From: a virus
Strand: one strand, 5' to 3'
Length of the DNA stretch: 20,460 nucleotides
Virus record (IMG/VR): IMGVR_UViG_3300009034_000237
Span: 1 to 20,460 of that record
The notes under the pieces are model-generated. The model did no database searches and had not been told where the DNA came from. It worked only from the letters and a program-made list of their open reading frames with translations. This document shows positions 2,153 through 20,456 of this stretch, one piece after another. Each line of letters begins with the position of its first letter. Positions within the stretch are counted from its first letter, which is position 1. The translations under genes were made by a program, and so were the position numbers.

Positions 2153-3262
2153 ATGGTTATAGAAATGAGCAGGTTGGACATACTGAAGTGCTTTCAATTG
2201 CTGCAGATTGTTGGGAAGCAGAAAAGCGATGGGGGGTATGCTCTTCCTTTTCATGGATTGGCTGTTTGGGAGCAGGAAGGGAGGATGGTTTGGTCTGTCT
2301 GTGACTCTAAGATGGTCTTGGATATTGTTTTGCCTATTGAGATAGACAAGAATATAGCATTTCAGATTGCTGATCTGTCTCGTATAGGGTCTTATATTCG
2401 GACTCTCTCTGATGATTCTGTGGTGATGTGGAAGGTTGACGATGACAAGTGTCTGATTAAGGAGGTTGGCAAACGGGGAGGTGTCAGGCTTTCTGTACTG
2501 GAATACTCTTTGATAGAGCAACCGAACTGGGGAGAAGTGCATGAATTAGACTTGATGGAGTTGGCCAGGCAGGGGAAGGTTGCTGGTAATTTCTGTGGTG
2601 AAGAGAAGGGGGATGTTTTTAAGGGTGTTTGTATTTCAGGAAATGATGTGTTTGCTGCTGATGGGATCTGGTTGGCTCGGCTCCACTTTCCTTTTCAGAA
2701 TGGGGTTGACTTGGGGGATGTCGTATTGCCTCCGAAGGTTTTTGATGTTTTGACAACCGGGACTCAGGGCACTGTTCAGTATAGTATGGCTAACGGGGCA
2801 GTTAGATTTGAGAAGGGAAATGTTCGATTGTGCACACGCCTTTTTGATGGGGATTTTCCTGTGCAGAGTGTAAGGGCTTTGGAAAAGCAGCACGAGTCAA
2901 CGGAGAGGTTTTGTTGGGGACTCGATGGGGATGCTATGGCGAAGGCATTGGCGAGGATACGTCTTTTTGCCTCAGCTCAGGGATGGAATGCCTATGGGAC
3001 TGCTTGTTATCTTCGAGTTGAGGGAGCAGATTTGATCGTTACTTCTGCAGATGAGACCATTGGCTTGGTGGAGGAATTCTTGGAGGTTGATGCAACTGGA
3101 GAGAGTGAGGAAATTTGCGTTGATATTTCCAGATTGGCTTGGTTGGTGGATCATGTGGTTGCTTTGGGGGAGAAGCTTGTCTTGCATTGTTCAGGGACTG
3201 CTCTCTGGATGAGATATGGAAACAACTTTTTCATGTTGATGCTTATACGAGGAAAAGACTAA
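2153..3262 (+). CDS. dnaN: DNA polymerase sliding clamp (DnaN-like)
   Basis: This encodes a beta-clamp-like processivity factor of 369 aa, close to the usual bacterial DnaN length (about 366-380). Family signatures visible are FAADGIWLARL at about residues 167-177 (like the ATDGHRL strand) and RLFDGDFP at 229-236 (like RLIEGEFP), with a C-terminal strand-rich third domain. The start was set at ATG 2153, preceded by AAAGGGGG, because DnaN proteins begin just before a helix like VIEMSRLDILKCFQ; the TTG at 2093 would add an unrelated 20-residue leader. The gap 1982-2152 holds no other gene and no promoter I trust. It probably works with the polymerase at 7036-10218. Confidence 0.75.
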   Translation: MVIEMSRLDILKCFQLLQIVGKQKSDGGYALPFHGLAVWEQEGRMVWSVCDSKMVLDIVLPIEIDKNIAFQIADLSRIGSYIRTLSDDSVVMWKVDDDKCLIKEVGKRGGVRLSVLEYSLIEQPNWGEVHELDLMELARQGKVAGNFCGEEKGDVFKGVCISGNDVFAADGIWLARLHFPFQNGVDLGDVVLPPKVFDVLTTGTQGTVQYSMANGAVRFEKGNVRLCTRLFDGDFPVQSVRALEKQHESTERFCWGLDGDAMAKALARIRLFASAQGWNAYGTACYLRVEGADLIVTSADETIGLVEEFLEVDATGESEEICVDISRLAWLVDHVVALGEKLVLHCSGTALWMRYGNNFFMLMLIRGKD

Positions 3263-3448: not shown

Positions 3449-4423
3449 ATGGAAAGCGTGACAAAAGAAGAGTTCATGGAAATGTATGGGAGATATGGGG
3501 AGAAGGAATTGAGAGATGAGATTTTGGAGTTTGGGGAAGGGTTGGATTCTGCGGAGATGGGCTTGGAAGAAATGCGAGAAAGTCTGTGGAGTGCTTATCT
3601 TAGGGATGTTAAAGGGGAGGAGCTATCTGACGAGGGAGGGGTGGGAGAGATAGAAGAAAGTAGCGTAGAATTTAGATTGATTTCTGTTGCACATCTTGTA
3701 GAAGATGCAAATTCGCTGAGGGCAGAGGAGACTCTGGAAGTATCGGATGGTTTTGTGGAGACGGTCAAGCGATTTGGGATTCTTCAGCCTTTAGTTGTTG
3801 AATCGGAGGATGCTGAAGGCAACCATGTGGTAAGAATCGGCCTACGAAGACTCAGGGGAGCTATCAAAGCTGGTCTAACAGAAGTCCCTTGCATTGTGCA
3901 TGGTTCTGTATGCCTGTCGGAGCGATTGGTGGAGAATCAGCAGAGGCAGTCGCTTTCTCCGCTTGAAGAGGCTGTGGCGATGAGTGAAATGCTTTCTGAT
4001 GGGGAATACACTCAGAATCAAGTTGCTGAGGAGTTAGGCATCTCCCAAGCTTTTGTTAGCCAATCTCTGAGCTTGCTGAATTTGAGCAAGGACGTGCAGA
4101 GGGTGGTTCAAAGATCCGGTGGTATTCCGAAGGATGTTCTTCTCGAGGTGGCAGCTGCCGGAGATGAGGATGCTCAGAAGAAAGCTTTGAGTGATGTTCA
4201 GGATCGAAATGTTGGGGTAGGAGAGCTTAGAAAGGAGCGACAAGCGAAGAAGACTTCAAGGGGAAGGAGAGGAAAGACTCCTTTTCGGTACAGGTACAGA
4301 GCTGAAGATGGTTCGTACAAATTGTTGATTTCGTTCAGCAAGAAAGACGAGGTGAGCAATCGAGAGATTCTTGAGCTTCTCAGGGCTTTGGTGCTGGAGT
4401 TGGAAGGCGAGATTGGGGAGTAG
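3449..4423 (+). CDS. ParB/Spo0J-like DNA-binding protein
   Basis: The first 70 residues are an acidic helical extension. A ParB N-terminal nuclease/CTPase-like domain follows at about 75-166: GILQPLVV, GLRRLRGAIKAGLTEVPC (matching GERRxRA...AG...vP) at 131-148, and ENQQRQSLSPLEE from 162. The KorB-type helix-turn-helix is at about 187-212 (QNQVAEELGISQAFVSQSLS). The C-terminal part is basic, then strand/helix. ATG 3449 is preceded by GGGAGGA. No ParA gene is nearby, so plasmid-like partition is not supported. ParB-like proteins are common in phage clusters with DNA modification enzymes, and the methyltransferase and glycosyltransferase genes are next. In the CTPase motif the glutamate of GERR is replaced by leucine (GLRR), so nucleotide binding may differ. 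Confidence 0.8.
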   Translation: MESVTKEEFMEMYGRYGEKELRDEILEFGEGLDSAEMGLEEMRESLWSAYLRDVKGEELSDEGGVGEIEESSVEFRLISVAHLVEDANSLRAEETLEVSDGFVETVKRFGILQPLVVESEDAEGNHVVRIGLRRLRGAIKAGLTEVPCIVHGSVCLSERLVENQQRQSLSPLEEAVAMSEMLSDGEYTQNQVAEELGISQAFVSQSLSLLNLSKDVQRVVQRSGGIPKDVLLEVAAAGDEDAQKKALSDVQDRNVGVGELRKERQAKKTSRGRRGKTPFRYRYRAEDGSYKLLISFSKKDEVSNREILELLRALVLELEGEIGE

Positions 4424-4475: not shown

Positions 4476-4541
4476 CTAAAGCTATGTCTCTCTAAGGTTT
4501 GGGCAGACACGTTTTTGTTTTTTGTGCAGAAAGAAGGAACT

Positions 4542-6752
4542 ATGGAGAACTACAAAGTCTTTTTGAAGAACAAGCGAATTGTAGATGCTTCCTTTGGGAA
4601 AAATGTGTCTGATTCTGCAATTCATCCAATGCTTTTTCCTTTCCAGCGGGATATTGTTCGCTGGGCTGTGAAAAAAGGGAGAGCCGCGGTGTTTGCTGAT
4701 ACAGGTCTTGGGAAAACTCACATAGCAACTGAGTGGGCTAGACTTCTTGGAGAAAAAACGTTGATTGTGTCCCCTTTGTCTGTGGCAAAACAGACTGTCC
4801 TGGCGGCAGGAAAAACAGATACAGAGATTAAGTATGTTAGATCGCAGAAAGAGGTGGCGACTTCTTTTGATGTTGATTTATTTATCACAAACTATGAGAT
4901 GCTGGATGCTTTTGACTCCTCCTTTTTTGGGGCTGTTGTGTTGGATGAGAGTAGTATTTTGAAATCTTTTACGGGAAAAATTCGGACGAAGTTGATTGAT
5001 AAGTTTTCTGATACTCCTTATCGGCTTTGTTGTACTGCAACTCCTGCTCCAAATGATATAGCGGAACTTTCTAATCATTCTGCGTTTCTTGGTGTTTTAT
5101 CTCGTGAGAATATGCTTTCTACTTTTTTTGTTCATGATGATAAGGGATGGAGATTGCGGGGGCATGCGGAGGAAGCCTTTTTTCGTTGGTTGTCTTCTTG
5201 GGCAATAAGCTTGAAAAAGCCTTCTGATTTGGGTTTTGAAGATGATGGATTTATTTTGCCTCCCTTGAATGTGACTCCTGTTTTTGTAAGTTCGGAAGAT
5301 ATAGTTAAGGATCTTTTTTCTGATCTTGGTGGAATCCAAAGCAGATCAAAGATACGTAGAGAGACATTGAAAGTTCGCGTTTCTCGTGGAGTAGAAATTA
5401 TTGAAAGTGAAATTGATAAGCAGTGGATTGTTTGGTGTGGGTTGAATGACGAAAGCTCTGCTTTGTCTCGTCTTGTTGAAGGTTCGGTGGAGGTAAAGGG
5501 GTCGGATAGTTTGGAGTACAAAATTTGTTCTTTTGAATCCTTTGTGTCGGAAGATACTAGAATTTTGGTCACGAAGCCTCGCATTGCCGGTTTTGGGATG
5601 AATTTTCAGAATGCAAGCAGGATGGTGTTTGTGGGGCTGTCTGATAGTTTCGAGTCTTACTATCAGTGCATCAGAAGATCCTGGAGATACTTGCAGGATG
5701 AGCCTGTTGATGTGTACATTGTTCTTTCGGAGAGAGAGCGGGGAATATGGGAAAATGTTAAACGGAAGGAAAGAGAGGCAGAGAAAATGTCGGAAAGGTT
5801 GGTTGATTTTGTGAAAGAAGCACAGATTGAAGAACTGTCTCAGTTGGATTCTGGTGAGGGTGAGGGTGTTTTTCAAACAGCAAAGAGCAGTGTGATTACA
5901 GACAGCCACTCTCTTTTTTTGGGAGATAGCGTGGAGAAACTGAAGGATCTTGAAGCTGATTACGTTGATTTCTCTGTTTTTTCTCCTCCGTTTCTGAATC
6001 TTTACACCTATACTCCTTCCGAGAGAGATGTTGGAAATTCTTTGGACGAAGATACTTTTTTTGAGCACTTCAGCTTCATTATTTCTGAGCTTTTGAGAAT
6101 AACGAAGCCTGGGCGTATTTGTGCGGTTCATACTGCGGACGTTCCGGCGCTTTTGTCGAAGGACGGATTTATTGGATTGAAGGACTTTCCTGGAAAGACT
6201 ATCATAGCCTTTGAGCAGAGAGGTTGGATTTATCACGGGCGGGTTACGATTGACAAGAACCCGCAGGCACAGGCTATTCGGACGCACAGCAAGGCTCTCT
6301 TGTTTGTTCAGTTTGAGAAGGACAGTTCTTGGTCTCGACCTGCTATCGGAGACTATGTTCTTCTTTTTCGGAAGCCTGGTGAGAATGCTGTTCCGGTCTT
6401 GCCTGTGGAGAATGGAGAGATGACTCGTGATTTGTGGATTGAGTGGGCGCATCCCGTCTGGTACGGAATAAGGGAGTCTGATACGCTTCAGCACACTGAC
6501 GGCAGAGCTAAGGAGGATGATAAGCATATTTGCCCTTTGCAGCTTGGTACGATAGAGCGGTGCATAAAGCTGTGGTCAAATCCTGGGGAAGTTGTACTGT
6601 CTCCCTTCGCTGGGATCGGAAGTGAGGTATATCAGGCAGTTAAGTTGGGTAGGTATGGGATAGGGATTGAGCTTAAAGAAAGCTATTTTGCTCAGATGGT
6701 TCAGAACATGAGGATGCTGGATGCTGAGTCTCGACAGCAATTTATGTTTTAG
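4542..6752 (+). CDS. SNF2-type helicase / DNA methyltransferase fusion
   Basis: A 736-aa two-part enzyme. The N-terminal part is an SF2/SNF2 ATPase: motif I DTGLGKT at residues 53-59, motif II LDESS with D135/E136, motif III CTATPAPN, motif V GFGMNFQNAS and motif VI YYQCIRRSWR. The C-terminal part is an amino-methyltransferase: catalytic SPPF at 481-484 comes before the AdoMet-binding FAGIGSE at 689-695, the order of beta-class N4-cytosine/N6-adenine enzymes. ATG 4542, preceded by GAAGGA, is preferred to TTG 4515. A DNA-translocating methylase could modify phage DNA for protection from host restriction; target base and site are not readable. No endonuclease domain is seen, so it is not an obvious complete restriction system. 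Confidence 0.85.
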   Translation: MENYKVFLKNKRIVDASFGKNVSDSAIHPMLFPFQRDIVRWAVKKGRAAVFADTGLGKTHIATEWARLLGEKTLIVSPLSVAKQTVLAAGKTDTEIKYVRSQKEVATSFDVDLFITNYEMLDAFDSSFFGAVVLDESSILKSFTGKIRTKLIDKFSDTPYRLCCTATPAPNDIAELSNHSAFLGVLSRENMLSTFFVHDDKGWRLRGHAEEAFFRWLSSWAISLKKPSDLGFEDDGFILPPLNVTPVFVSSEDIVKDLFSDLGGIQSRSKIRRETLKVRVSRGVEIIESEIDKQWIVWCGLNDESSALSRLVEGSVEVKGSDSLEYKICSFESFVSEDTRILVTKPRIAGFGMNFQNASRMVFVGLSDSFESYYQCIRRSWRYLQDEPVDVYIVLSERERGIWENVKRKEREAEKMSERLVDFVKEAQIEELSQLDSGEGEGVFQTAKSSVITDSHSLFLGDSVEKLKDLEADYVDFSVFSPPFLNLYTYTPSERDVGNSLDEDTFFEHFSFIISELLRITKPGRICAVHTADVPALLSKDGFIGLKDFPGKTIIAFEQRGWIYHGRVTIDKNPQAQAIRTHSKALLFVQFEKDSSWSRPAIGDYVLLFRKPGENAVPVLPVENGEMTRDLWIEWAHPVWYGIRESDTLQHTDGRAKEDDKHICPLQLGTIERCIKLWSNPGEVVLSPFAGIGSEVYQAVKLGRYGIGIELKESYFAQMVQNMRMLDAESRQQFMF

Positions 6753-6764
6753 GATAGGGAGACA

Positions 6765-7046
6765 ATGGCTGTGGAGAAACCTGAAATGCAGCAGTTTCAT
6801 TTGTTTGGAGAACAGCAAGAAGAAGACAGTGAGTGGTGGGAAGAAGAGTGGCAGGGAATGCCTGAGTTTGTTCAGGAGGACTTGTCTTCTTATAGAATGA
6901 TAATGGTTCATTTTGGGAGCGAAGAGGCAGTGGATAGTTTTGCCAAACTTGTGGATCAGACGATAACTCCTCGGACCAAAAGTATATGGTATCCAAAGGT
7001 TGATCGGGAGAATCTACTGATTAGAAGGTGTGTTGATGAATCCTAA
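6765..7046 (+). CDS. small acidic protein next to the polymerase fusion, 93 aa
   Basis: The N-terminal half is acidic and rich in E, Q and W (EEDSEWWEEEWQGMPEF). The C-terminal half looks like a compact alpha/beta unit: VHFGSEEAVDSFAKLVDQ, then ITPRTKSIWYPK. From memory, short proteins with this ...IT..T.SIWYP end occur upstream of phage glycosyltransferase genes, but I cannot check that. It overlaps the next gene by 11 nt, so the two are likely translationally coupled. Function unknown; a partner or regulator of the fusion enzyme is an inference from coupling. Confidence 0.6.
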   Translation: MAVEKPEMQQFHLFGEQQEEDSEWWEEEWQGMPEFVQEDLSSYRMIMVHFGSEEAVDSFAKLVDQTITPRTKSIWYPKVDRENLLIRRCVDES

Positions 7047-10000
7047 ATATCCTGTGTATATCATATCTAAGGGAAGGTGGGAATCTCGCATGACAAGCAA
7101 GGCACTTGAGAAGATAAAAGTGCCTTACTATATTGTTGTTGAGCCTCAAGAATATGATAAGTATGCTGCTGTCATAGCTTCTAAGAAAATACTTGTATTG
7201 CCATTTTCTAACTTGGGGCAGGGATCAATTCCTGCCCGCAACTGGGTTTGGGAGCATTCAATTTCTATTGGAGCAGAAAGGCATTGGATGTTGGATGATA
7301 ATCTTAGGGTTTTTTATAGATTGAATAGAAACATAAAGTATAGAGTTGGTTCAGGGACGATTTTTAGAGTCATTGAGGATTTTGTGGATAGATATGAGAA
7401 CATCGGGATTTCAGGTATGGAGTATGAGTTGTTTATACAAAGAAAGGAGAAAGTGGCACCTTATAGACTCAACACACGAGTTTATTCCTGTATTCTCATC
7501 AAAAATGATATTCCTTTTAGATGGCGGGGGAGATACAATGAAGATACAGATTTGTCTATAAGGGTTTTGAAAGCTGGTTGGTGCACTATATTGTTTCAGG
7601 CATTTCTATGTGACAAAATGCCAACAATGAGTATGAAAGGTGGCAATACAGAGGAGCTTTACAAAGATGATGGTCGTTTGAAGATGGCCCAGTCTTTGCA
7701 GGAACAACACCCTGATGTCGTGAAGATAACAAAAAAATGGGGCCGTTGGCAGCATCAAGTGGATTATAGACCTTTTAAGGGGAACAAATTGATAAAAAGG
7801 CTGGGAGTATTTGTTCAAAAAGGAGTGAATAATTATGGGATGGTGCTGAAAAACATAGGTGAGCCTGTTCAAGAGATTATAGTGCATCAGCCTCAAGCAA
7901 TAGAGCAAGGTGCAAAAAGGCGCTGTGACGGTTGTAGATTTAGTTCAAAGATAGTCAGGGGAGAGGGGCCAGAGCTTTCTGATTTGGTGGTGGTTGGAGA
8001 AGGGCCTGGAAAGCAGGAGATGGATGCTGGACTACCTTTCCTTGGCGTTGCTCCTTCTGGAAAGCTGCTGAACAAGTGTCTAAAGGGTATTGGTTTTGAT
8101 AGGAAAGATGTTTATGTTACGAACGCCTTCCTTTGTGGAGGTTCTCATAGACCGAAGGAACTCTTAGGTCGGTGTAGGAGGGAGCTAATAGGTGAGGTAA
8201 AGCAGAGGAAGCCTAAAGTGATTTTGGCTTTGGGAGCTGTTGCCTCAAAGTGTTTTGGAGATACTGCTAAGGGAGAGGCTGTTTGGGTTGATGAGGTATG
8301 CGCTTTTGTGGTTTCAGCATACCATCCTGCCTTTGTTCTCAGGAATAAGTTTTTCAAGGGGAAGCTCTTAGAACAGTTTGACACGGCAGCAGCAGCTATG
8401 AAGCCTATGGAGGATGTAGATTACTGGTTGGTGGATACCTGGGAGAAGTTTGAATCATTACAGAGTGTTCTTGTTAATACAAAGAAGATTGCAGTGGATG
8501 TTGAGACCACGGGTTTGGATCGAGATGATAAACTTTTGGGGATTGGGATTTGTTGGGAGCGAGGGAGAGCTTCATATATTCCGATCAGGTGGCAGTCTTT
8601 TTTTGGAGAATTGGATTTATACTGGGGGAAACGTTCGGAGTGGGAGGTAGTAGATAAGTTTCTCTCTGATCTATTGAGTAGAGCGAGGAGCTGTTTTCAC
8701 AATGCTAAGTTTGATTTGAGATTCTTGTCTCAATCTGGAGTTGAGTCTGAAAAAGTAAAACTTGCTTTCGATACAATGTTGGCTTCCCATGTGTTGGATT
8801 GTGATCTGTCCCATAGATTGGAATCTCTTGGGAAGAGAAAGTTCCCAGCGCAGTTTGGGCGGTACAAGGAGGAGACATCTGAGGCTATTAAGAAGAAAGG
8901 AGGTTTGCTTGGACTTACCTTGAAGCAGGTAACGAGGCGTTGCTGTGGCGATGCGGACCTGACTTTTCGCTTGGCTGAACAGCAAGCAGAGGAGTTAGCT
9001 GCTAAAGGACTTGATGGGCTGTTCTATAATTTTTCGATGCCGATGGTCAAGTTTTTGTTGGACGTGGAGAATACGGGGGTGCAGTTTGATGTTGAGAGAG
9101 CCAAGGTGTTGTCTGAGGCTTTGGGGGAGCAAATTCGGTTGGTAGAGGAGAAAGTATTTAGGGTTGTGGGGGAGCGGTTCTTGATTTCCTCTGATCAACA
9201 GTTAGGCATGGTACTGAAAAAGATAGGTGTTCCTCTTAGGAGGAAGACTGCTAAGGGGCAAGTTTCTGTGGATGAAGATGCATTGTTGCCTTTTGAGGGC
9301 AAGTTTCCGATTGTAAGGAAAATTCTGGAATATCGGGGCCTGAGGCAATTGAAAAGCACTTTTGTTGATGGAGTTTTGCCACGAGTGGATTCATTGGGAA
9401 GGCTGCATACTACTTTTTCTCAGCATGTTACCCCGACGGGTAGATTGTCGAGTGAGAAGCCAAATCTTCAGAATGTTCCTACTATGAGAAAGGATAAGAG
9501 ATTTCGGCCTTTGTATATAGCAGGAGAAGGGAAGAAATTAGTTTGTGCTGATTATGCCCAAGAACAGTTGCGAATCTTGGCTTGGTATTCTAAGGATGCA
9601 AGCCTTTTGGCTGCATTTGAGTCTGGTGAGGATATTCATTTGAGGACAGGAGCGGATATATTTGGAAAGGATATTGTGAGTATAAGTTCGGAGCAACGAC
9701 AACAGGCGAAAGGTGTAAACTTTGGGGTTATTTTTGGGCAGTCAGCACAGGGTTTAGCTGAGGCGTTGGGAGTAACGGAGGCAGAAGCAACCAAGTTTTT
9801 GGATCGGTATTTTAAGGTATATGATGGTGTTAAGGCATGGGTAAAGGCAGTTGAGGATTTTGTTTTGAAGAATGGTTATGTTGCGAATGCTTATGGAAGG
9901 GTTCGGCCTTTGCCTTGGGTGGTGGATGAGAAGAAACGACAGGAAGCTTACCGAAAAGCAGTGAATACCCTTGTTCAAGGCACGGCAGCGGACTACGCAA

Positions 10001-10218
10001 ACTATGCGATGGTTAGAGTGGGGAAGGCCCTGAGGGAAGGAAATTATGGGGCAAGAGTAGTGCTGTTGGAGCACGACGAGATCGTGATCGAAGTTCCTAT
10101 TGAGGAAGTGGAGAAAGTGGTTCCAGTTATTAGGGAAGGGATGATAGAGCCTATACTGCCGGTGGACATAAAAATGGAAGTGGACATTAAAGTAGTGGAC
10201 AATTGGGGAGAAGATTGA
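7036..10218 (+). CDS. polA: fusion: glycosyltransferase (TAGT-like) - uracil-DNA glycosylase - DNA polymerase I
   Basis: One open frame of 1060 aa from ATG 7036. Residues about 1-260 resemble the TET-associated glycosyltransferase (GT-A) family: YPVYIISKGR start, WMLDDN as the DxD-type metal site, and NEDTDLSIRVLKAGW. Residues about 290-440 are a family 4 uracil-DNA glycosylase: GEGPGKQE...GLPFLG, an iron-sulfur cysteine set C297, C300, C367, C380, and AYHP. Residues about 480-660 are a 3'-5' exonuclease: DVET (D488, E490), D560 and D639. The polymerase follows: motif A DYAQEQLR (D839), O-helix K-GVNFG (F896 at the E. coli 762 position), motif C HDE (1013-1015). There is no 5' nuclease domain. 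It would copy DNA, excise or sense uracil, and perhaps add sugar to modified bases. Domain calls are firm for UDG and Pol, good for the glycosyltransferase; coupling of the activities is inferred. Confidence 0.88.
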   Translation: MNPKYPVYIISKGRWESRMTSKALEKIKVPYYIVVEPQEYDKYAAVIASKKILVLPFSNLGQGSIPARNWVWEHSISIGAERHWMLDDNLRVFYRLNRNIKYRVGSGTIFRVIEDFVDRYENIGISGMEYELFIQRKEKVAPYRLNTRVYSCILIKNDIPFRWRGRYNEDTDLSIRVLKAGWCTILFQAFLCDKMPTMSMKGGNTEELYKDDGRLKMAQSLQEQHPDVVKITKKWGRWQHQVDYRPFKGNKLIKRLGVFVQKGVNNYGMVLKNIGEPVQEIIVHQPQAIEQGAKRRCDGCRFSSKIVRGEGPELSDLVVVGEGPGKQEMDAGLPFLGVAPSGKLLNKCLKGIGFDRKDVYVTNAFLCGGSHRPKELLGRCRRELIGEVKQRKPKVILALGAVASKCFGDTAKGEAVWVDEVCAFVVSAYHPAFVLRNKFFKGKLLEQFDTAAAAMKPMEDVDYWLVDTWEKFESLQSVLVNTKKIAVDVETTGLDRDDKLLGIGICWERGRASYIPIRWQSFFGELDLYWGKRSEWEVVDKFLSDLLSRARSCFHNAKFDLRFLSQSGVESEKVKLAFDTMLASHVLDCDLSHRLESLGKRKFPAQFGRYKEETSEAIKKKGGLLGLTLKQVTRRCCGDADLTFRLAEQQAEELAAKGLDGLFYNFSMPMVKFLLDVENTGVQFDVERAKVLSEALGEQIRLVEEKVFRVVGERFLISSDQQLGMVLKKIGVPLRRKTAKGQVSVDEDALLPFEGKFPIVRKILEYRGLRQLKSTFVDGVLPRVDSLGRLHTTFSQHVTPTGRLSSEKPNLQNVPTMRKDKRFRPLYIAGEGKKLVCADYAQEQLRILAWYSKDASLLAAFESGEDIHLRTGADIFGKDIVSISSEQRQQAKGVNFGVIFGQSAQGLAEALGVTEAEATKFLDRYFKVYDGVKAWVKAVEDFVLKNGYVANAYGRVRPLPWVVDEKKRQEAYRKAVNTLVQGTAADYANYAMVRVGKALREGNYGARVVLLEHDEIVIEVPIEEVEKVVPVIREGMIEPILPVDIKMEVDIKVVDNWGED

Positions 10219-16720: not shown

Positions 16721-17572
16721 TTGGGCAAGCTAAAAGATAAAGTGGAAAGCCAGAAGGCCAGGTCGGGTCACAAAAAGCCGAGCAAGAAATGGCAGCTGGA
16801 CTCCGGTGAGGTTCGCGGCATCAAGTCTGAGGACGTGTGGCGAAAGCACTTCGATGAGAAGCAGTCCATAAAGGATATCGCGGAATCTTATGGCGTGTCG
16901 GTGGAGGCGATACATTATCACATTAGAAAGAAGACCAGGCTTCCGAAAGGTGTAAAGTCGGAGGACGTGTGGAGGATGCACTTCGATGAGGAAAAGCCTG
17001 CAAAGGAGATTGCTGCCTTCTACGGCGTGACGGTAGATGCGATAGGATACCACCTTCGCAAGCTGGACGACCTTTCTCGGGCGGCTAAGAAGAAGATAAA
17101 CAGGGGGAAAACGCTGAGGCTTCTCAGGAACAGGGAGTTGGTGGAAAGTAAGGGTTTGGAAGATCCAAGCGAGATTGGGAGAACTTTCGATGTATTTCTT
17201 GCGTTGTCGGATGCCAAAGAGATTGCTGAATCGGTTATAGACGAAGCTTATGATCACATAGACGAACAGAAAAGTCAGGATATACTTCTCCGCGCCGCTG
17301 GGGAGATTAGAAGGCAGGCAGAAGTTACGGCAGATCTTATAATGAAACTGGAGTTTTACAAGGACACAGAAGCAGCTCTGGACATGATCGTGAGCGTGAT
17401 CAGAGAGGAGTGCAATGAAGGAGTTGTCAGGAGGATACTCGACCGGCTCAAAATACGGGGAGGTACTCAGCCGGTTCCGCTCGAAGCTGTCGGGGGAGGT
17501 GGAGAAGCCGGAGGGAGCATCGAAGGCTTGGAGCAAGGAATTGGAGAAGGAGTTTCTGAGTCAGCCGATTGA
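16721..17572 (+). CDS. terminase small subunit-like protein with tandem HTH repeats
   Basis: A 283-aa DNA-binding protein directly upstream of the terminase ATPase, so probably the small terminase subunit that recognises packaging sites. It carries a duplicated unit at about residues 33-71 and 77-115, each reading SEDVW-x-HFDE followed by a helix-turn-helix (IKDIAESYGVSVEAIHYHI; AKEIAAFYGVTVDAIGYHL). A helical middle (about 140-245) fits an oligomerisation domain; the C-terminus is glycine-rich and overlaps the next gene by 158 nt. Start TTG 16721 with AGGAGGG 12 nt upstream. A transcription regulator is possible, but position favours TerS. Confidence 0.65.
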   Translation: MGKLKDKVESQKARSGHKKPSKKWQLDSGEVRGIKSEDVWRKHFDEKQSIKDIAESYGVSVEAIHYHIRKKTRLPKGVKSEDVWRMHFDEEKPAKEIAAFYGVTVDAIGYHLRKLDDLSRAAKKKINRGKTLRLLRNRELVESKGLEDPSEIGRTFDVFLALSDAKEIAESVIDEAYDHIDEQKSQDILLRAAGEIRRQAEVTADLIMKLEFYKDTEAALDMIVSVIREECNEGVVRRILDRLKIRGGTQPVPLEAVGGGGEAGGSIEGLEQGIGEGVSESAD

Positions 17573-18431
17573 GACGTTGATAGATGATCCTTACTTTCTG
17601 GGGAGAAAGGAGGATCTGTATCCGGCGCACAGGGACGATATTATTGAATTGTTTGCGAGGAAAGATGCGGGGGAAAGTCTGTACGTTTTTTTGGATACGG
17701 AGGCCATAGGCGCGGGAAAGACCTATAAGGCGGCAGTTATTTTATGGATACTTATATACAGATTACTATGTCGGACTAAGCCGCAGGAGTACTTAGGGTT
17801 GGATAGGGATTCTGTATTGTCATATATCTGCATGAGTAGAGATGAGAAAAAAGCGAAAAAAGTCACGTTCACAAAAATTATGTCATTTTTCGATTGTCAG
17901 TTCTTTAATGAGTATTTCCCTCCTGTGGTTGGCTTTAGACTTCTTCGGGAGTATGCTCAAGGAACAAGGAAATTTTATCCCTCTGAGATACGGTTTCCAA
18001 AAAATATAGTTCTTTTTCCTGGATCAGGGCAAGCTGCTTCTGCTCTTGGGTATGATTTGCTTGGAGGAATAGTTGACGAGACGAACTTTTTGGAATACAC
18101 TGAGCGAAGTAAAAAGCAGGCAAGTGATGATACTACGCATCTTTATGATGCTGCGGAGGACATGTTTCGCCACATAATTTCGCGGGTCGAAAGTCGGTTC
18201 ATGTATGGTGGAAAACTTCCTACGGAGTGTCTTTTAACTCTTATTTCTTCTCATCGTTACAAAAATGATTTTCTGGACAGGAAGATTAAGGAGTGCAAGG
18301 AAGGCAAAAATAAGCAAGCTATGTGGCGATGGCGAGCACTGTGGGAGGCAAAACCAAAGATGCATAAAAATCGTGTGATTTGGTCAGGAGAGGTTTTTTC
18401 GTTTGATACGGAAACGATGGAAGTTGTCTAA
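17415..18431 (+). CDS. terminase large subunit, ATPase part only (C-terminally truncated)
   Basis: The DNA-packaging motor ATPase: Walker A EAIGAGKT (96-103), Walker B LLGGIVDE with D221/E222, and the coupling motif LTLISSH (274-280). At 338 aa it lacks the C-terminal RNase H-like nuclease domain of typical TerL (usually 450-600 aa). The frame runs into the first array repeat and stops at its TAA (18429-18431), right after FSFDTETMEVV, a linker normally followed by more protein. The missing domain is not found later in this window. ATG 17415 has GGAG upstream; it overlaps the small-subunit gene by 158 nt. Likely truncated or split by the array/IscB insertion; the nuclease piece could lie beyond the window. 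Confidence 0.8.
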   Translation: MKELSGGYSTGSKYGEVLSRFRSKLSGEVEKPEGASKAWSKELEKEFLSQPIETLIDDPYFLGRKEDLYPAHRDDIIELFARKDAGESLYVFLDTEAIGAGKTYKAAVILWILIYRLLCRTKPQEYLGLDRDSVLSYICMSRDEKKAKKVTFTKIMSFFDCQFFNEYFPPVVGFRLLREYAQGTRKFYPSEIRFPKNIVLFPGSGQAASALGYDLLGGIVDETNFLEYTERSKKQASDDTTHLYDAAEDMFRHIISRVESRFMYGGKLPTECLLTLISSHRYKNDFLDRKIKECKEGKNKQAMWRWRALWEAKPKMHKNRVIWSGEVFSFDTETMEVV

Positions 18432-18607
18432 GTGCTAGTTGAGCCTCAACTACCATTACGACATCTTTAAGAGCTAAGGAGGTGAAGACGATGGACAGTC
18501 TAAGTGCTAGTTGAGCCTCAACTACCATTACGACCAACCATCCCGCTTCTGATCCCCTCATAAATAAACAGTCTAAGTGCTAGTTGAGCCTCAACTACCA
18601 TTACGAC
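18426..18607 (+). CRISPR. mini CRISPR-like array, three 37-bp repeats, two spacers
   Basis: Three identical 37-bp repeats at 18426-18462, 18498-18534 and 18571-18607 flank spacers of 35 bp (18463-18497) and 36 bp (18535-18570). Each repeat starts GTCTAAG and ends ATTACGAC, with an internal 8-bp palindrome TAGTTGAG-C-CTCAACTA. The spacers are unrelated to each other, except that both end in ACA next to the repeat. Repeat identity with near-constant spacing is the CRISPR signature, although two spacers is minimal. No cas1 or cas2 is in the window. The array runs straight into the omega RNA and iscB on the same strand, so spacers would sit 5' of repeats, as in Cas9/IscB guides. The first repeat contains the terL stop codon. 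Confidence 0.85.
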
Positions 18608-18814
18608 CGTTGTAATGGCGTTAGACCAGCCTAAGTCTTGAATAAAGACTACGTTATCTATGTCATGATACCTTTGGATGCTTCTCCAGTCTGAAGCCCT
18701 ATCGTCTGTTATTAAACAGTTCTGGGCACAGGAGCAGTGTAGCAGACATGAAAAGCATAGATAACATTGGCGAGGAGACCATAACCACCTTCGGGTGAGT
18801 TGGAGTAATCCAAA
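18571..18814 (+). ncRNA. omega RNA of IscB, including last repeat (scaffold)
   Basis: A non-coding stretch with nested stems immediately upstream of iscB, where the omega RNA lies in this family. Guide-proximal part: repeat 3 pairs with the next 20 nt, outer stem GTCTAA (18571-18576) with TTAGAC (18621-18626) and inner stem CCATTACG (18598-18605) with TGTAATGG (18611-18618). Next is the hairpin AGTCTT/AAGACT (18634-18650). A perfect 10-bp long-range stem, GTTATCTATG (18653-18662) with CATAGATAAC (18756-18765), encloses GTCTG/CAGAC, GCCC/GGGC and CTGTT/AACAG. A CACC-TTCG-GGTG hairpin ends just before the iscB start. The natural guide would be spacer 2. The 5' and 3' ends are not mapped. Confidence 0.85.
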
Positions 18815-20104
18815 ATGAGAGTTTTTGTATTGAGTAATACCAAGAAGCCGTTGATGCCGTGCAGCCCTGCTCGTGCACGCATATTATTAAAGGCGGGCAA
18901 GACTGCTGTGTATCGGAGACAACCGTTCACTGTTATTTTGAAATACCGGTCAGATGGGGATACTCAGCCGATCGAGTTCAAAGTTGATCCAGGAAGCAAA
19001 GTTACGGGCATAGCGTTGGTTGGGGTTTTTCCGAAACAGGGTAGAATAGTCCTCTGGGCAGCTAATTTGGAGCACAGGGGACAGGCGATTCGGTTGCGTC
19101 TCGGACGCCGCCGGATGCTGCGTAGAGGACGTAGAGGACGCAAGACTCGGTATCGCCCGCCGAGATTTCTGAACCGCACCAGGCCGAAAGGCTGGCTTCC
19201 GCCGTCTTTGAAGTCGAGAGTTGATAATGTTTCTCAATGGTATGGACGGATGTTGTTTTGTGTTCCTATCACTGAAACCCACGTGGAGACAGTGCGTTTC
19301 GATCTGCAAAAGATGGAGAATCCTGAGATTTTGGGAGTGGAATACCAGCAAGGGACTCTTTTGGGCTATGAATGCCGGGAATATGTTCTTGAGAAATGGG
19401 ATCGAAAATGTGCTTACTGTGGTGCAGAGCTTGTTCCGTTAGAAGTGGAGCACATTGCTCCCAGGAGCAAAGGTGGGTCGAATAGAGTTTCCAATTTGAC
19501 ACTGGCGTGTATTTCCTGTAATCAGGCAAAAGGGAATCGTTCAGTTGAGGATTTCTTGAAGGATAAGCCGGAAGTATTAAAGCGTATCCAAACTCAGGCT
19601 AAAGCTCCCCTGCGGGATGCCGCTGCCGTAAACGCAACTCGATATGCCATTGGGACAGAGTTGAAGGGCTATGGTCTGCCAACCTCGTTCTGGAGCGGAG
19701 GTAGAACGAAGATGAACCGGGTTGCACAGGGCTATGAGAAAGATCATTTTATGGATGCGGTTTGTGTTGGAGAGACAGGTGTCTCTGTTCATATTCCAAA
19801 TAATTTGAAACCTTTGCATATTAAGGCAACTGGGCAAGGAAAACATCAAGTAGTTCGGACGGATAAGCATGGTTTCCCTTGTGCAAAGGCTGGGAGAGTC
19901 AAGCGGGTTCATGGATTTCAAAGCGGGGATCTGGTTAAGTTGGTTCAGCCAAAGGGCAAATATGTAGGAACGTATTTTGGGCACTTGGCCGGTATTCGTA
20001 AATCTGGAAGCTTCGATGTGAAAACATTGTCAGGAAAGATTCCGGCTTCATGGAAACACTTCATATTGATTCAGCGTATGGATGGCTATGTTTACTCTAA
20101 GTAA
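18815..20104 (+). CDS. iscB: IscB RNA-guided DNA nuclease
   Basis: A complete 429-aa IscB. The PLMP domain is at the N-terminus (KKPLMPCSPARARILLKAGK), followed by RuvC-I KVDPGSKVTG (D58), an arginine-rich bridge helix (about 90-120), RuvC-II HVETVRFD (E158), an HNH domain with zinc cysteines C199, C202, C232, C235 and catalytic H213 in EVEHIAP, and RuvC-III KDHFMD (H311, D314). The C-terminal ~100 residues form the TAM-interacting region. All catalytic residues are present, so a double-strand-cutting nuclease is expected, guided by the adjacent omega RNA. There is no Cas9-like REC lobe and no TnpA transposase nearby. The start ATG 18815 has TTGGAG upstream. Unlike most IscBs it is attached to a CRISPR-like array, and it sits in a phage genome. 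Confidence 0.95.
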   Translation: MRVFVLSNTKKPLMPCSPARARILLKAGKTAVYRRQPFTVILKYRSDGDTQPIEFKVDPGSKVTGIALVGVFPKQGRIVLWAANLEHRGQAIRLRLGRRRMLRRGRRGRKTRYRPPRFLNRTRPKGWLPPSLKSRVDNVSQWYGRMLFCVPITETHVETVRFDLQKMENPEILGVEYQQGTLLGYECREYVLEKWDRKCAYCGAELVPLEVEHIAPRSKGGSNRVSNLTLACISCNQAKGNRSVEDFLKDKPEVLKRIQTQAKAPLRDAAAVNATRYAIGTELKGYGLPTSFWSGGRTKMNRVAQGYEKDHFMDAVCVGETGVSVHIPNNLKPLHIKATGQGKHQVVRTDKHGFPCAKAGRVKRVHGFQSGDLVKLVQPKGKYVGTYFGHLAGIRKSGSFDVKTLSGKIPASWKHFILIQRMDGYVYSK

Positions 20105-20117
20105 AAAGGAGAATCTA

Positions 20118-20456
20118 ATGAACATAGTAGAAAAGCTTGACTGCTTGGCCGAACTGAACTCAGAGATCGAGGCAATCGAGGCTCCACTGAGCAGTCAGAT
20201 TGATGCGCTGGCGAACCAGATGTTGGCCTTGTCCTCGGAGAAGAGGGAGCAAAGGGTGGGATTGGTGAAGTCTATTCAAAGCGATGTTCTCGAACTGAGG
20301 CAGACCATCCGAGGTGAGTTTCTCCAAGCGATATACCGAAAGGGTGTAGTTACTTGGGATGCTTCTGCTTTGCGGGAACATGCTATTGACCACCCTGAAA
20401 TTCTCGAACTGAAGAAGATGGGGAAGCCGAGCGTGCGGATAGCAGAGGTGAAATAA
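20118..20456 (+). CDS. coiled-coil phage protein, 112 aa
   Basis: ATG 20118 follows AAAAGGAG and starts 13 nt after iscB. Residues about 1-75 are heptad-like amphipathic helix (ELNSEIEAIEAPLSSQIDAL; QSDVLELRQTIR), then VTWDASALREHAIDHPEILELK with a basic end. The shape recalls small Gam-like or host-nuclease-inhibitor proteins of phages, but no signature proves it. It is not the missing terminase nuclease domain. Its stop overlaps an ATG at 20456 that begins a further gene cut off by the window edge. Confidence 0.6.
   Translation: MNIVEKLDCLAELNSEIEAIEAPLSSQIDALANQMLALSSEKREQRVGLVKSIQSDVLELRQTIRGEFLQAIYRKGVVTWDASALREHAIDHPEILELKKMGKPSVRIAEVK

Follow-up and report, generated by a model that had tools for sequence, protein, structure and literature searches.

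The window analyzed here is the complete IMG/VR record IMGVR_UViG_3300009034_000237, a 20,461-base viral contig. Near its end it carries a gene for the RNA-guided nuclease IscB, preceded by an omegaRNA and by an array of clustered regularly interspaced short palindromic repeats (CRISPR). All of these lie on the plus strand, in the order terL fragment, repeat 1, spacer 1, repeat 2, spacer 2, repeat 3 joined to the omegaRNA, and iscB (Table 1). The 37-nucleotide (nt) repeat GTCTAAGTGCTAGTTGAGCCTCAACTACCATTACGAC occurs in three exact copies, where chance predicts none (0 of 100 shuffles). The identical, regularly placed copies enclose two unique spacers of similar length (35 and 36 nt), as in a CRISPR array. 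A first-pass annotation had described three identical 37-bp repeats with two 35- to 36-bp spacers, a structured noncoding RNA, and a catalytically intact IscB on one strand, and the exact copies and the common strand bear it out.

The structured RNA is likewise recognizable, as a HEARO RNA or omegaRNA (RF02033; 129 bits) that lies just upstream of iscB, as in OMEGA systems. Repeat 3 constitutes the first 37 nt of the RF02033 match, and the array therefore seems to derive from the guide-adaptor strand of the omegaRNA itself. To judge from the sequence, the array is a run of extra guide-plus-adaptor-strand units ahead of a normal omegaRNA. The first-pass annotation had arranged repeats, RNA, and iscB head to tail; the shared strand stands, but the RNA is not a separate element that follows the repeats, since repeat 3 belongs to it. 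The predicted fold of positions 18535 to 18812 includes a three-helix junction with both repeat pairings listed in Table 1 (minimum free energy z = -2.9), and a shuffle test of the window's anti-repeat gave a p of 0.02. Across loci, the repeat pairs with the 5' region of the omegaRNA in 9 of 9 tested (p 0 to 0.055 each). Spacer 2 is followed in cis by an entire omegaRNA and would thus be a normal guide; spacer 1 would depend on pairing in trans, for which repeat 1 or 2 could use the same anti-repeat.

The encoded protein has the PLMP, split RuvC, and HNH architecture of OMEGA IscB (RRXRR domain PF14239, E = 8e-70, plus HNH), and solved IscB structures are among its similarity matches. The catalytic positions D58, E158, H213, N227, H311, and D314 are present and are common to all 12 array-bearing IscBs aligned; as first annotated, the predicted nuclease is intact. 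The description of the locus as RNA targeting was mistaken for this family, since IscB is an RNA-guided double-stranded DNA nuclease.

Table 1. Features of the CRISPR-IscB locus in the window, with the cas12u2 gene of a related cyanophage contig
Feature	Contig	Position	Strand	Remarks
terL, 5' part	Window	17415..18431	+	338 aa; tblastn matches to phages; stops at repeat 1
Repeat 1	Window	18426..18462	+	37 nt; preceded by terL coding sequence that may be an additional guide
Spacer 1	Window	18463..18497	+	35 nt; 3' end resembles a Shine-Dalgarno sequence and ATG (AAGGAGGTGAAGACGATGGACA)
Repeat 2	Window	18498..18534	+	37 nt; exact copy
Spacer 2	Window	18535..18570	+	36 nt; abuts the complete omegaRNA as its guide
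Repeat 3	Window	18571..18607	+	5' strand of the omegaRNA guide adaptor; HEARO match begins at 18571
HEARO/omegaRNA (RF02033)	Window	18571..18785	+	129.2 bits against a gathering score of 83; E = 6e-27
Anti-repeat GTTGTAATGG	Window	18609..18618	+	Pairs with repeat 3' end CCATTACGAC; 10 bp, one G-U
TTAGAC (helix P1)	Window	18621..18626	+	Pairs with repeat 5' end GTCTAA; direct reading and predicted fold
IscB RNA-guided nuclease	Window	18815..20104	+	429 aa; PLMP, RuvC, HNH
Small open reading frame	Window	20118..20456	+	112 aa; next to iscB on its 3' side; homologues not found; does not supply the lost terL half
cas12u2	L217	4290-6560		Has its own array, at the locus of CRISPR-IscB in near-identical cyanophages

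Sequence comparison with 109 viral loci, sampled by pattern, indicates that the window locus is not isolated and that fused and full-array relatives exist in other viruses. The fused layout, in which the last repeat is the 5' end of the omegaRNA, recurs in three viral contigs with unrelated repeats: L007 (38-nt repeat, 28-nt spacers), L035 (28-nt repeat, three consecutive spacers of exactly 33 nt), and L080 (37-nt repeat). The repeats of all three decay with distance from the omegaRNA. At the end of contig L192, after iscB, a 36-nt repeat stands twice, 71 nt apart (positions 2924 to 3030), with no clear anti-repeat there. The arrays of L019 and L042 were set aside because they resemble ordinary host-type arrays that lie near IscB.

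Whereas the window has its anti-repeat in cis, fused to repeat 3, the anti-repeat is separate in contig L189 and in contigs L172 to L184. The latter are cyanophage-like, with homology to PaV-LD and terL in three of them; their arrays, of up to 20 repeats, lie downstream of iscB, and the omegaRNA lies upstream with an anti-repeat as its 5' end. Near-identical phages of this set have some spacers in common and others different, which indicates spacer turnover. L189, a 70-kb phage contig that encodes TerL and a tape measure protein, contains three blocks of repeats and two HEARO RNAs that stand alone; of these RNAs, the one tested begins with an anti-repeat. Its tracr-like HEARO RNA copies are found at 2302-2501 and 4516-4678, between the three blocks. 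The first-pass annotation had named variation like that of ordinary tandem repeats as the outcome that would count against it; in the related phages the repeats are conserved and the spacers differ or turn over.

Phage contigs with IscB arrays are recurrent (G001 and G002 carry terL, tape measure, or portal genes), and the array label needs six changes of state, gains or losses being counted, on a quickly built 145-row IscB tree. The IscB proteins nearest to that of the window on this tree are bacterial. An omegaRNA-linked array was not seen in 145 cellular loci (one of them, L250, is close to an ordinary array); because these were sampled by pattern, 0 of 145 is not a rate. IscB without an array is found in the isolate phages Microcoleus My-WqHQDG and Nodularia kac68v162 and the 484-kb LR756508.

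Spacers of the cyanophage relatives match other phages. Spacer L175_1 matches eight other viral contigs at 37 of 37 positions and Planktothrix phage PaV-LD at 34 of 37. Spacer L175_11 matches at 36 of 37 positions inside one gene of L217, L212, and L209, with its 3' 16 nt perfect; in L217 this gene scores as cas12u2 (357 bits). About 16 nt of guide are enough, and the 14 nt proximal to the target-adjacent motif (TAM) matter (PMC9640706); with its mismatch outside the 3' 16 nt, the L175_11 target should therefore be cut, if the TAM fits. L217, which around the locus shares 94 to 98% identity with the IscB phage, has at this site cas12u2 together with an array of its own; one leftover IscB-type repeat follows this module, and the same leftover is present in L209. 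The IscB and Cas12u2 modules therefore replace one another, and an IscB-array spacer, L175_11, is directed at the cas12u2 of the exchanging module. A VHLDA.TP-site pattern drawn from L174 and L172 spacers found the arrays themselves alone. For spacer 2 of the window, a self-target at 2584-2619 on the minus strand (26 of 36 positions) was not accepted: it has ten mismatches, and 1 of 400 shuffles reached it.

The array begins inside a truncated gene. Homologues of the terminase large subunit measure 621 to 1062 aa and, in alignment, run about 290 aa further, with a nuclease domain; homology of the window's terL stops at ...MEVV/TAA inside repeat 1, which provides the stop codon (GTC TAA). Since the reading frame ends in repeat 1 and the homologues continue, the element sits at a terL break, a position consistent with insertion or homing into terL. 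The missing half was not found elsewhere in the window. The record ends 356 bases past iscB, and the break fits insertion, gene splitting, or misassembly alike. The terL end (18405-18425, GAAACGATGGA) and spacer 1 (18478-18497, GAAGACGATGGA) share a near-identical stretch, which may be chance. In L004, an HNH-like gene at 2349-2735 apparently ends early (...DMGPRPSRL stop), just ahead of a phage omegaRNA with a single guide, which suggests site-specific insertion of IscB elements.

Elsewhere the window encodes a helicase-like fragment, a sliding clamp, a ParB-like protein, a helicase-methyltransferase, a DNA polymerase, RecA, and an RNA ligase, besides a weak terminase match. One open reading frame of 1062 aa (7030-10218) combines a TAGT glycosyltransferase, a uracil-DNA glycosylase, and a family A DNA polymerase; another (4515-6752) joins a phage helicase to a DNA methyltransferase. 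Cas1 was not found in 15 records tested, Cas2 in 7, or the TnpA Y1 transposase (PF01797) in 7 viral records, the window being included each time. The window thus has neither the Cas1-Cas2 adaptation genes nor the TnpA of an IS200/IS605 element. The first-pass view of a phage-carried, array-associated IscB lacking TnpA and Cas1/Cas2 gains support from the HEARO, Pfam, and PHROG matches and from the relative loci.

We consider it likely that this is a virus-borne CRISPR-IscB locus, with a multi-guide array derived from the omegaRNA and a probable part in inter-phage competition. The array would have arisen from the omegaRNA, the repeat being its 5' (ascending) adaptor strand and the last copy alone being joined to the scaffold. 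In the transcript, spacer 2 would act in cis as a ready-made guide for IscB, and spacer 1, perhaps with the terL flank before repeat 1, would serve as a CRISPR RNA (crRNA) that pairs in trans with the anti-repeat, in parallel with the separated forms of related phages, which must act so. IscB would then cut double-stranded DNA that matches the guide beside a TAM. Competition with related phages would be the most likely role because spacers of the cyanophage relatives match other phages, including cas12u2 at the same locus in rivals. The window appears to be a modest fused form, well supported in its anatomy; its function we infer, and the strongest functional evidence lies with its relatives.

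Several observations weigh against this interpretation. With just two spacers, the array of the window is near the lower limit, and neither spacer had a target in phages, plasmids, or viral contigs. There is no adaptation gene to account for spacer entry, and a promoter-like site above chance was not found at the window locus. Spacer L175_1 also has a perfect match 3.6 kb away on the contig that carries it, which would be hard to reconcile with active targeting. The 3' flanks of the two cyanophage targets differ (CATAAA and GTGGTT), so no TAM emerges. The repeat:scaffold co-folding energy was not significant for the window alone (p 0.16) and was dropped as proof of trans pairing; a stem 2 of at least 9 bp was ruled out as a mark of array loci, being present as well in about 30% of loci without arrays (46 of ~155). 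The trans step is therefore one that we infer. In L210, a cyanophage IscB-array spacer (3902-3938 and 7509-7551) perfectly matches its own genome, the two places being 3.6 kb apart.

Another explanation for these data could be a single-guide IscB element inserted in terL, with IscB as its RNA-guided homing nuclease, in which spacer 2 alone acts in cis and repeats 1 and 2 arose as by-products when the left end slipped or recombined. Such an element would account for terL being cut exactly at repeat 1, for the similar position of the L004 IscB after an apparently truncated gene, for an omegaRNA that is complete at repeat 3 only, and for a spacer 1 with no target found. By-products of this kind sit badly with spacers that are mutually unlike and of near-constant length, three of exactly 33 nt in L035, and with relatives that have 10 to 20 repeats, spacer turnover, and phage targets; moreover, separated omegaRNAs can act in trans only. 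We therefore regard the single-guide explanation as unlikely.

It is very improbable that the locus is an assembly artifact in which a phage contig ending in terL was misjoined to a bacterial IscB element. The end of terL homology at the repeat boundary, the bacterial affinity of the nearest IscB proteins, and the short sequence left after iscB would all fit a misjoin, whereas the recurrence of IscB arrays on phage contigs, among them G001 and G002 with their phage genes, and an unbroken reading frame downstream of iscB speak for a genuine junction. Viral mini-arrays with one or two spacers are common (PMC11656645), and one could serve a host CRISPR-Cas system with IscB as a chance neighbor, an arrangement in keeping with the failure to find Cas1 or Cas2 in the window record. 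This we find scarcely credible: the repeat is the 5' strand of HEARO, and in four viral contigs with unrelated repeats, unlike host-type repeats, the last repeat is always the omegaRNA 5' end.

Beyond the virus-borne CRISPR-IscB locus that we favor lies a broader proposal, which we hold tentatively and rate at slightly below an even chance. Phages may repeatedly have turned the IscB omegaRNA into CRISPR arrays, first fused and then split into a crRNA and a tracr-like omegaRNA. This would give a Cas9-like dual-RNA system without Cas1/Cas2, used by phage against phage, with the window as a living intermediate between OMEGA and CRISPR-Cas9.

HEARO and OMEGA IscB were reportedly described by Weinberg in 2009 and Altae-Tran in 2021. 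The window has the same nuclease family and the same RF02033 omegaRNA upstream of the gene; unlike these systems, which typically have one guide fused to one omegaRNA, it has three repeats and two spacers. Array-associated IscB was reportedly noted by Altae-Tran in 2021 at about 1% of IscB loci, and CRISPR-associated IscB is reportedly the subject of a 2025 Nature Communications paper (16:10693). As in the window, the known loci have a CRISPR array upstream of IscB's omegaRNA; phage carriage, anti-repeat split forms, and phage-matching spacers would be additions here. IscB on viral contigs is also known, more than 16% of HEARO contigs being viral or prophage (PMC9755519). In the literature searched, of which coverage was incomplete, no paper was found that describes IscB arrays of phages in which the guides are split or other phages are targeted; the phage split-guide forms appear new, array-associated IscB itself being already known.

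Like type II Cas9 with its crRNA and trans-activating crRNA (tracrRNA), the window has predicted repeat-anti-repeat pairing that would feed an HNH/RuvC nuclease; it differs in its 429-aa IscB, PLMP domain, 200-nt omegaRNA, and lack of cas1/cas2. The guide-adaptor strands of the omegaRNA have been proposed to have become the CRISPR repeat and the tracrRNA (PMC9581776). How a one-guide transposon RNA gave rise to these two components of Cas9 is the open question that the present loci address: the window and its relatives resemble naturally occurring intermediates on the way to CRISPR-Cas9, and fused and split forms side by side, with six array changes on the tree, make the transition testable with 430-aa nucleases. 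Type V-U2 loci with arrays are known from cyanophages (CL131; PMC6293099), and viral mini-arrays are aimed at rival viruses (PMC11656645). The window resembles these in joining a minimal phage array to a single transposon-derived nuclease or in the targeting of related viruses. The phage loci suggest a small weapon with several guides for conflict between phages; it differs from type V-U2 in that its effector is IscB, and in cyanophages these two RNA-guided effectors, IscB and Cas12u2, swap as modules at one locus.
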